From Acidobacteriaceae bacterium (GTDB lineage: Bacteria; Acidobacteriota; Terriglobia; Terriglobales; Acidobacteriaceae), in the NCBI GenBank assembly GCA_025360645.1, contig JANYBT010000001.1, positions 1-47,543 of the forward strand: DNA of 47,543 nucleotides. The letters run 5' to 3'. Below, piece by piece: positions 19,536 to 22,752 of the stretch (positions are counted from its first letter, which is position 1; every line of letters begins with the position of its first letter). A program made the translations under genes and the position numbers. The notes under the pieces were generated by a model. That model ran no database searches. It was given only the letters and a program-made list of their open reading frames with translations, and was not told the origin of the DNA.

Positions 19536-21146
19536 ATGCCTGACGACAAGAAGGCCGCTCCCATCTCCCCAAGTGCCACAGAAGCAGTGCCCGGGCCGTC
19601 CGCCGAAGTGTTCGCGGTTTATGGCGTGGAACCCGAAGTACAAGCCTATGCGATGGCGAAGTACTCGCGGTCGGTGCTGTCGATGAAGGAATCGCTGAAG
19701 GAAATCAGCCAGCAGAACGCGGAGAAGTTTCTCAACACGTTTTATTTTCAGTACGGGCACCGGTCGATTGCCGATCTGGCGCACATCGTGCTGGCGGTGG
19801 AGCGATTGTCGCTGCTGGCGGCGATCGCGGTGGTGGATGAGGACCGATGGGATGGCCAGGAACGCTCGACGCGCTACCAGGATTTCAAGAAGAGCGGATA
19901 CTTTACGCCGGAGTTCGGCGACGATGGGCAGGGGCGGGCGCTCTTCCAGAAGACGCTCTTCGAGAAGACGATCACTGAGCTGTTTGCTCATTACGAACAC
20001 GTTTCCGAGGGCATGGCCCAATATCTGATTGAAATCACGCCTCGGCCCAGCGAGATGAAGCCGGAAGCCTACGAGCGAACGCTGCGGGCGCGCGCCTTCG
20101 ACATTTCGCGCTACATGCTGCCGCTGGCCACCAACACATCGCTGGGCGAGATCGTGAACGCGCGCACACTGGAGAATCAGGTGGCACATTTGCTGTCGCA
20201 CCCGCACCGGGAAGTGCGGGAGTTGGCCGCGAAGATGAAGGCGGCGGCAATTTCGCCGGCGTACAACGTGAGGGCGGAGGCGATGCAGGCGTTGGTGGAG
20301 GCGATTCGCGCGGCGTCGCTGGAACTGGGAGAGCGGGCGGAGCGGGAACTGTTGCGGGAAGTGCGGGTGGCGCCGACGCTGGTGAAGTATGCGGATCCGA
20401 ATGTGTATGAACTGGAAACGCGGCGGGAATTGCGGCAGGCGGCGGCGGAGTTGATGAAGGGGGCGTCGATAGAGGCGTCGCCGGGAGTGGATTTGCTCGA
20501 CCATTCGCTGGACCATGAGCCGCTCGCAGTGGAACTAGCGACGACCCTGCTTTATCAGCATTGCCACTATTCCTACCGGCAACTGCGCGGGGCGGTGGAG
20601 GCCGCGGGCGAGGCGGCGCGGCAGGAAATCATCGACCTCGGTTTGCGCCATCGCGGGCGACACGACGAAATGCTGCGCGGGTTCCGCGTGGGACAACAAT
20701 TCCGCTTCGACATCCTGATGGATATTGGGGGATTCCGCGATATGCACCGGCACCGGCGTTGCGTGCAGATCATGCAGGACTTCACTACGGCGCATGGTTA
20801 CGACACGCCGGAGGAACTGGCGAAGGGCGGCGCGGGAGCGGAATATGAGACCGCGATGGAGAGCGCGCAGGCCGCAGTGAAACAACTGGCGCGATATCCG
20901 GGGGAGGAAGCCGAAGAGAATTCGCAGTACCTGATTCCGCTGGCGTTCCGCAAACGCACTCTGTTCAAGATGGATTTCGCCGAAGCCGTCTACATCTGCG
21001 AGTTGCGCACCGGGCCGGCGGGACACATGTCTTACCGGCGGGTGGCCTATGCGATGTACCAGGAAGTGGCGAAGAAGTATCCAGCACTGGCGAAGTATTT
21101 TCGGGTGCATGATGTGAATGAGCCGGTGGATTTGTTGAAGCGGTAG
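19536..21146 (+). CDS. thyX: Double-length FAD-dependent thymidylate synthase-like protein
   Basis: 536 residues, about twice the usual ThyX (220-250), with two ThyX-like halves. ThyX makes dTMP from dUMP using FAD and methylene-THF. The signature is RHR-x2-S-x-N-E-x-S-x-R. In the first half it aligns to residues 101-113 (DEDRWDGQERSTR), keeping E..S.R but not RHR. In the second half it aligns to 405-417 (RHRRCVQIMQDFT), keeping RHR only. Other ThyX-like parts are RARAFDISRYMLPLATNTS (first half) and LIPLAFRKR with ELRTGPAGHMSYR (second half). ATG 19536 has GGAAG 5 bases before it. No thyA is in the window. Whether it is catalytically competent is open. Confidence 0.85.
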   Translation: MPDDKKAAPISPSATEAVPGPSAEVFAVYGVEPEVQAYAMAKYSRSVLSMKESLKEISQQNAEKFLNTFYFQYGHRSIADLAHIVLAVERLSLLAAIAVVDEDRWDGQERSTRYQDFKKSGYFTPEFGDDGQGRALFQKTLFEKTITELFAHYEHVSEGMAQYLIEITPRPSEMKPEAYERTLRARAFDISRYMLPLATNTSLGEIVNARTLENQVAHLLSHPHREVRELAAKMKAAAISPAYNVRAEAMQALVEAIRAASLELGERAERELLREVRVAPTLVKYADPNVYELETRRELRQAAAELMKGASIEASPGVDLLDHSLDHEPLAVELATTLLYQHCHYSYRQLRGAVEAAGEAARQEIIDLGLRHRGRHDEMLRGFRVGQQFRFDILMDIGGFRDMHRHRRCVQIMQDFTTAHGYDTPEELAKGGAGAEYETAMESAQAAVKQLARYPGEEAEENSQYLIPLAFRKRTLFKMDFAEAVYICELRTGPAGHMSYRRVAYAMYQEVAKKYPALAKYFRVHDVNEPVDLLKR

Positions 21147-21152
21147 AGGGGC

Positions 21153-21887
21153 TTAAACGGACGGCTGCGCCAGCTTGGTGCCCAGCGGCATTTCATTCCA
21201 AATTCGACCTTCCAAGGTTCTGCCGTTTTTGGCTTTGAAGAATCCGCCCCACTGCTTGAAAAAGAATGGCACGCGAGCCTTGATGCAAATATCGCGAATT
21301 TCGGCTGCCCAATTGCCAGACATGACCCTCGCGCCTGGCCCCGATTCGCCTCCCACAATCACCCACTGAATCCCGGTGACATCGAGGGTAGGGAGTGGTC
21401 CCAAGAGCGGTTCCAACGAAAGGAACTTAACGGAGGCAGGGGTGTTGCGAAGGTGTTCGATGCGGTGCAAATAGGCATCGTTCTCTACGCTGACACCCAT
21501 CCAGATGTTAGCGCGCCAATCGAGTTGCGAACTCAGGGCCTGCAACCGGCTGGAGCGCTTGGTGAGAATTTGAAATCTGTGCCAATGAGCACGGGCCATC
21601 ACGTCAAAGACGCGGTGGATGTAGTCGAGAGGGACATCCTCATGAAAGAGATCGCTCATCGAGTTGACGAAAATTGTACGTGGCTTTTTCCACGAGAGCG
21701 GCAAATTCAAAGCGCCGGGCTGCAAAGTGACCTCGAAGCCGTTCTCATAGATTTTGCTGCCCATGGCGCGGAGCCGTTTGGCCATGCGCTCGGCGTAGCA
21801 ATGCTTGCAGCCGGGGCTGACTTTGCTGCAGCCCGTGACCGGGTTCCAGGTGGAGTCGGTCCATTCGATTGGTGAGGAGAGGGCCAT
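21153..21887 (-). CDS. Three-Cys-motif protein (DUF5131, phage Gp37/Gp68-like)
   Basis: 244 residues. The N-terminus [14 protein letters not shown]-x6-C-x2-C (Cys20, 27, 30, with [13 protein letters not shown]) is the hallmark of this radical-SAM-like family. Further markers are [56 protein letters not shown] and [10 protein letters not shown]. Found in phages, plasmids and genomic islands; the biochemical role is not established. It starts 6 bases after the TcmP-type gene, its usual partner, so the two form one transcription unit. Confidence 0.9.
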
Positions 21888-21893
21888 GAGGTG

Positions 21894-22752
21894 CTACAAC
21901 ATTTTCCTGTATTTGTTGAAAATCTGGTCAAGAATCGTTTTAGCAACGGGTTTTTGAGAAGCGAAAAAAAGATAATACACGGTCGCACCCTTGGAGTTTC
22001 GCATCGCGACCGGCTCTGGAACCTCCTTGAACCCTGCGGTGCTCACCAGGCGTTTCCGAAAGGCCTCGGCCAATTTTTCGTTGCTCTCTTTTTCGGGAAT
22101 CTCAAATAGATTTCCCGCAGTGGAGTAAGCGGCGTCACGCCACGAGCGATCACCCCAGAACCGGTCCATGCGAGCTAGTTGAGCCTCCTCAACCCCCGCC
22201 TGATCTTTCCAGAGGACGTTAAGGTTCATGTCGTAAATGGGAAAATTCAAGAACAAGTCGATGCTCTTCATTTTGCCGGCAGTCTCAATGACCCTCCAAT
22301 CCAGGTGAAGTCCATAGGGGTCAAGCAAGCACAGGGCGCGCACGTATTGTTCGTAGCGGGTTCGGGGAAAGACTTGGTTCAACAGGACATCATTGCAATC
22401 TCCGTGGTAAATGTGAACATCGGTCTGCTCGCCGGCAATTTCTTCCGGGGGCTTGCACCTTGGCCTGATTAAGGTCAATGAAGAAGAACTCGCGAAACGG
22501 GGGACGGACATTCAACGCGTTCAGAGGGCTTCCAGGTACGTATTCGCCCTTGGTTTTCGAAATGTGGATTCCCGTGCCCGCGAATGCGTCAATATACGAG
22601 TGCGTGAGACGGGGTTGTTTGGACAGAATCGTCGAATAAGCGCTTGCATATTCGCGAACGATGTCCAGTTTGATCTCAGACCACGGACCGATAACGTCAA
22701 TCGAGGATTGGTCGCTCATCAAGCGATTATCGTCGGGTACCAAGTTTGTCAT
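21894..22752 (-). pseudogene. tcmP: Three-Cys-motif partner protein TcmP, frameshifted
   Basis: Two frames together make one TcmP. The first part (22752 to about 22452) has DVIGPWSEIKLDIVREYASAYSTIL, YIDAFAGTGIH and FREFFFIDLNQAKVQAP. The second part (about 22450 to 21894) has EEIAGEQTDVHIYHGDCNDVLL, YVRALCLLDPYGLHLDW and KMKSIDLFLNFPIYDMN. Removing one base from the C5 run at 22447-22451 joins them in frame (VQAPEEIAGE). The DAFAGTG motif resembles the SAM-binding site of methyltransferases. An ATG at 22719 (MSDQSS) is an alternative start. The cause may be a real mutation, slippage, or a sequencing error in the homopolymer. Confidence 0.85.

Follow-up and report, generated by a model that had tools for sequence, protein, structure and literature searches.

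The window analysed here is a stretch of 47,543 nucleotides from a soil bacterium of the Acidobacteriaceae, and positions 19536–21146 on its + strand, on which all features described below also lie unless noted, hold an open reading frame with an ATG start that encodes a protein of 536 aa plus stop. The protein has two matches to the Thy1 family (PF02511), scoring 112 bits in all, and each half alone lies above the Pfam cut-off of 24.8 (65.5 and 55 bits), which bears out the original prediction of a double ThyX at this locus. Nothing but Thy1 scored above its own cut-off in the Pfam scan, in which no match to ThyA (PF00303) was found. The first ThyX half spans aa 24–240 (19605–20255; Thy1 match at aa 33–236) and the second aa 314–530 (20475–21125, likewise covered by a Thy1 match), and a helical connector, aa 248–313 (20277–20474), joins the two folds in the secondary structure of the predicted model. 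The chain thus has two domains in 536 aa, compared with ~210–270 aa for the single-domain ThyX. A frameshift or an assembly fusion of two genes is ruled out by the same open double frame in many independent genomes. The score against TIGR02170, the NCBIfam ThyX equivalog, is 35.5 bits, below the cut-off of 87.9, and automatic naming may therefore miss the double ThyX. On the − strand of the window (21153–22752), a DUF5131 gene lies beside a gene split over two frames (21894–22511 and 22390–22752); the latter, which we take to be a three-Cys-motif partner gene, is perhaps frameshifted or affected by a sequencing error.

An AlphaFold2 model, calculated on an alignment of 58 double ThyX proteins (alignment A1, all from Acidobacteriota), has a mean pLDDT of 90.7 and a pTM of 0.90 over both halves, and the high pTM suggests that the halves are packed in a fixed arrangement. 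Residues 19–288 of the model match M. tuberculosis (Mtb) ThyX (3hzg; Z 10.6, rmsd 2.5 over 166 aa), and residues 315–529 match T. maritima (Tm) ThyX (Z 9.8, rmsd 2.7–2.9 over about 151 aa). When the PDB was searched, the profile of the 58 doubles matched Mtb ThyX (E 1e-30), and the single double-ThyX sequence found no ThyX. No double-length chain was among the ThyX chains matched in the profile and structure searches, and the site geometry of the double ThyX is presumed here from its likeness to single ThyX.

The contiguous signature RHR-x7-S-x-R does not occur within one domain of this protein; S-x-R lies in the first half and RHR in the second. Residues 101–113 of the first half, DEDRWDGQERSTR, keep E109, S111, and R113 on a gapless alignment with the motif and have lost RHR, at whose position D101-E102-D103 is found (19836–19844). 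The conserved lid tyrosine directly after the motif, Y114, is also kept. Residues 405–417 of the second half, RHRRCVQIMQDFT, keep of the motif R405-H406-R407 alone (20748–20756), the segment that contacts FAD and dUMP. The motif alignment put forward earlier from the sequence, with E, S, and R in half one and RHR in half two, agrees with these assignments letter for letter. The kept active-site loop of the first half, E109-R-S111-T-R113-Y114 (19860–19877), comprises the equivalents of Mtb Gln103, Ser105, Arg107, and Tyr108, and the corresponding loop of the second half is degenerate (M413-Q-D415-F-T417-T418, 20772–20789).

Other site residues are divided as well. The first half holds H75-R76-S77, the GHxS segment with the equivalents of Mtb His69 and Ser71 (19758–19766), R192 in the column of Mtb Arg172 and Tm Arg147 on sequence alignment (20109–20111), and R210, which on the alignment of the 58 doubles is the equivalent of Mtb Arg190, a contact of the FAD phosphate (20163–20165). 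The Ser71 column of the second half is R381 on the profile alignment, and its Arg172 column is Q464. R491 of the second half (21006–21008) is the equivalent of Mtb Arg199 and Tm Arg174, which contact dUMP, and the first half has L219 in this column. The equivalent of Arg87, another dUMP contact, is Leu in this protein and Arg in 30 of the 58 first halves; single ThyX of the T. maritima type likewise lacks it. The equivalents of RHR, Ser105, Arg107, Tyr108, Arg199, and Ser71 are all present somewhere in the chain (R405, H406, R407, S111, R113, Y114, R491, and S77).

The same division was observed throughout alignment A1. The full RHR is carried by all 58 second halves and by none of the 58 first halves. 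For S-x-R it is the reverse: every first half has it, and no second half has it at the homologous offset. The Tyr108 column is Tyr in 57 first halves, the Ser71 column is S or T in all 58 first halves and Arg in 55 of the 58 second halves, and the Arg172 column is Arg in every first half. The Arg199 column is Arg in all 58 second halves versus two first halves, with an Arg adjoining this column in the first half too in some classes of doubles. The Arg190 column shows no clean partition across the family (R in 38/58 first halves and 21/58 second halves), and its equivalent lies, depending on the class, in the first half (as here), in both halves, in the second half only, or in neither. A role-free test, based on the columns that hardly vary among 17 single ThyX proteins from Acidobacteriota, returned the His69, Ser105, Arg107, Tyr108, and Arg172 columns as first-half-only and Arg95 as second-half-only, with His96 and Arg97 at 100% in the second halves versus 22% and 36%, respectively, in the first. 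This conservation across the doubles rules out chance matches to the motif.

The polarity of the split is universal in the 68 doubles examined, with RHNR in place of RHR in three of them; the complementary loss, for which a survey of other double-length proteins had been suggested, recurs in 58/58 Acidobacteriota doubles and in ten others. The distribution outside Acidobacteriota was drawn from plasmids and phages alone. The plasmid doubles occur in Miltoncostaea and Euzebya (Actinomycetota) and in Bacillus and Paenibacillus (Bacillota; L175–L177), the latter with RHNR, one residue being inserted into the RHR of the second half. The phage doubles are those of Tunturi_5 (Acidobacteria), Ma-LMM01 (Microcystis), My-WqHQDG (Microcoleus), and, on Vibrio, vB_VmeM-Yong XC31 and BONAISHI. 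In a Foldseek comparison with viral models, the protein of Ma-LMM01 aligned over the full length (E 1.9e-20, 22% identity), and scans of viral contigs with the queries P0001 and A3 gave no match. In the jumbo phage Tunturi_5 (L178, gp49–gp50), a dCMP deaminase gene lies directly before the double ThyX gene; the product of dCMP deaminase is dUMP, the substrate of ThyX.

The assembly that holds the gene (3.8 Mb, 99.89% complete, 0.08% contaminated) contains no other Thy1 protein, no ThyA, no DHFR, and no thymidine kinase, in searches that were positive in control genomes. With neither a second Thy1 protein nor ThyA in the assembly, the double ThyX is the sole candidate thymidylate synthase; a thyA or a normal thyX elsewhere in the genome, which the original prediction had listed, together with a loss of the FAD and dUMP contacts in both halves, as counting against such activity, was looked for and not found. 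The named relatives, at most 74% identical, come from Terriglobia/Acidobacteriaceae records of Acidobacteriota, and the 80 loci listed by a profile search of genome contigs with the own-clade alignment are from Acidobacteriota (Terriglobia). Of 61 related genomes, 51 contain a relative; almost all of these are from this bacterium's own family and order, with a single frame of ~500–550 aa.

In the crystal structures of Mtb ThyX, each active site consists of residues from three subunits: subunit A gives RHR (95–97) and Arg199, subunit B gives Ser71 and Arg190, and subunit C gives Arg87, Gln103 (through its backbone), Ser105, Arg107, and Tyr108 (PMC6514825). The premise of the original prediction, that different subunits contribute the parts of the motif to a given site, is therefore right for Mtb ThyX, and the split of the doubles matches the subunit roles, since RHR and the S-x-R-Y loop are provided by different Mtb subunits. 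The retained residues sort by role: the second half has RHR together with the equivalent of Arg199, and the first has S-x-R-Y together with that of Ser71. The role sorting, the universal split, and the absence of thyA and of a second thyX strongly support the idea of split duties, in which one site is formed from two halves. These results indicate that the double ThyX very probably is the cell's thymidylate synthase, dependent on flavin and folate, and originated by duplication and fusion with a partition of the active site; we infer the activity from its residues, its predicted fold, and the genome context.

Such an enzyme would have arisen by duplication of a ThyX gene, followed by fusion in frame, after which each half would have lost the residues for one kind of inter-subunit site while its residues for the other kind were retained. 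The FAD- and dUMP-binding RHR and the Arg199 equivalent, corresponding to role A in Mtb ThyX, would have remained in the second half, and the first half would provide the FAD-phosphate contacts Ser71 and, in this protein, Arg190 (role B) as well as the mobile loop of the active site, E-x-S-x-R-Y (role C). If the D2 geometry of the tetramer is kept, two chains would form a pseudo-tetramer in which a complete site is made up of one second half and both first halves, with one complete site per chain. Under D2 logic, with a second half in position A and first halves in positions B and C, a further complete site, related by the two-fold axis, would be made from D (a second half), C, and B, and the remaining two sites would lack both RHR and the loop and be dead. 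This assignment leads, by analogy with single ThyX, to a two-chain pseudo-tetramer in which two sites probably work and the other two are dead. The chemistry, which involves reduced FAD, CH2-tetrahydrofolate, and dUMP, is assumed from ThyX, and the double ThyX would presumably bind FAD.

The same chemistry could be carried out in another assembly, with the site formed within one chain or in another two-fold relation, and with a number of working sites other than one per chain. The residues force just one pairing, that of the second-half RHR with the first-half S-x-R-Y, and the role of the third subunit is not fixed by Arg190 across the family. However, three subunits meet at every site of single ThyX (PMC6514825), and in this protein the first half holds the equivalents of both Ser71 and Arg190, in line with sites that combine two first halves with one second half; we therefore regard another assembly as possible but doubtful.

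Thymidylate synthesis was surveyed in a sample of 149 Acidobacteriota genomes. Thy1 was found in 114 of them (75 double, 36 single, and 3 fragments), full-length ThyA in 29 others, and neither Thy1 nor full-length ThyA in 6. Full-length ThyA and double ThyX were never found together (0/75; Fisher p 5e-11, a descriptive value since the genomes are related). DHFR was present in 29/29 ThyA genomes, in 12 of the 36 single-ThyX genomes, and clearly in 1 of the 75 double-ThyX genomes, with borderline matches (23–27 bits) in three more. ThyX gives tetrahydrofolate back directly, which explains the absence of DHFR alongside it. That DHFR can be missing where ThyX is present has been described before (PMC1971073, PMC1274311).

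The protein could instead be a ThyX relative that acts on a different substrate, such as a methylase of UMP or of a modified base like PolB, with dTMP made by an unknown enzyme; this would be consistent with the long divergence and with the score under the NCBIfam ThyX cut-off, and PolB is among the structural matches. This reading is nevertheless very unlikely, because the double ThyX is the sole candidate for thymidylate synthase in a genome that is 99.9% complete and lacks thymidine kinase, no double-ThyX genome of the survey holds full-length ThyA, DHFR is absent alongside as expected for a ThyX-type reaction, and the dUMP contacts are retained, divided between the halves. The new function that had been raised earlier as an alternative has little in its favour, given the mutual exclusion of ThyA and double ThyX and the phage copy beside a dCMP deaminase. 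A division into one half that is catalytic on its own and another that is an inactive structural copy is hardly credible, common as pseudoenzyme fusions are in general, because neither half is complete, RHR being missing from all 58 first halves and S-x-R from all 58 second halves, and because each retained residue set is fully conserved where it occurs.

Some genomes of the phylum showed further variation. Two double-ThyX genomes (G168 and G186; L182, L183) also encode a ThyA-superfamily protein of ~340 aa that scores 77–88 bits, below full-scoring ThyA. Four genomes of one genus (G094, G141, G178, and also G169; L179–L181), 93–99% complete, have neither ThyX nor full-length ThyA, and the sole thymidylate synthase candidate there is a divergent ThyA-like protein of ~290 aa with a PPC motif (28–46 bits to PF00303). 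A single-domain ThyX (L092, G153:C1:4377200-4379700) carries an apparent HNH-type intein inside the signature motif, which reads KHRIA / C...HN / SEFNEISGRY in one open frame of 692 aa. An intein in L121, suggested by a long match, was dropped, as the ORF is an ordinary double of 571 aa.

For the history of the duplication, a tree of the halves was built with the motif columns removed. Grouping follows position in the chain, not the source organism: a branch with a support of 79 has all second halves on one side, 20 of the 24 first halves make up a starred clade, and the class structure is largely mirrored between first and second halves. Placing all first halves in one clade was not rejected (p-AU 0.6) and gave a likelihood higher than that of the free tree, and placing the L065-type halves in one clade gave an AU p of 0.48. 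The data are most simply read as a single ancient duplication-fusion with the split coming after it; a separate origin of the L065-type doubles is not needed but may have occurred. A wider reading combines this single event with the change of a symmetric four-site enzyme into an obligately asymmetric one that has half as many sites and that would have spread over phyla and phages as the sole thymidylate synthase, and with vestigial sites, marked by the newly conserved R381, that would serve another role such as nucleotide sensing; as a whole, we consider this combination unlikely.

ThyX is a drug target, and its active site at the subunit interface has been well studied, to our knowledge always as that of a symmetric homotetramer. 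For the double ThyX, evolution appears to have run a mixed-subunit experiment, in which the residues were separated by role with one set per half, and this offers a natural way of testing which residues work together in a site. The double ThyX would illustrate the subfunctionalisation of an inter-subunit active site within one chain, and would account for dTMP synthesis in many Acidobacteriota without ThyA and mostly without DHFR. It also suggests that motif-based annotation (RHR-x7-S-x-R, TIGR02170) can overlook a widespread thymidylate synthase.

The double ThyX is a real, widespread variant of a known enzyme, and the duplication has been known since 2009, when Valas and Bourne described a ThyX domain duplication in Chloroflexi and termed it uncharacterised (PMC3224940). 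The Chloroflexi protein, as described there, shares the two ThyX domains per chain, and that description does not appear to extend to the motif or to how the residues are divided. The open-access papers searched contained no account of the complementary split, and no assay of any double ThyX was found. Single ThyX/FDTS (T. maritima TM0449 and M. tuberculosis ThyX; PF02511, TIGR02170) has the fold seen in both halves and shares RHR, S-x-R-Y, the Arg172 and Arg199 columns, and sites between subunits, whereas the double ThyX is twice as long, has a split motif and no complete half, and scores below the TIGR02170 cut-off. The PolB UMP/dUMP methylase (4p5a, 4p5b) has a ThyX-like fold in common with the double ThyX but is single-domain and belongs to an antibiotic pathway. 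The phage "thymidylate synthase" family PHROG phrog_36506 (491 positions) and Ma-LMM01 gp020 (491 aa) are double-length and show the same split, differing in that they are phage-borne, diverged, and annotated just as thymidylate synthase or ThyX.
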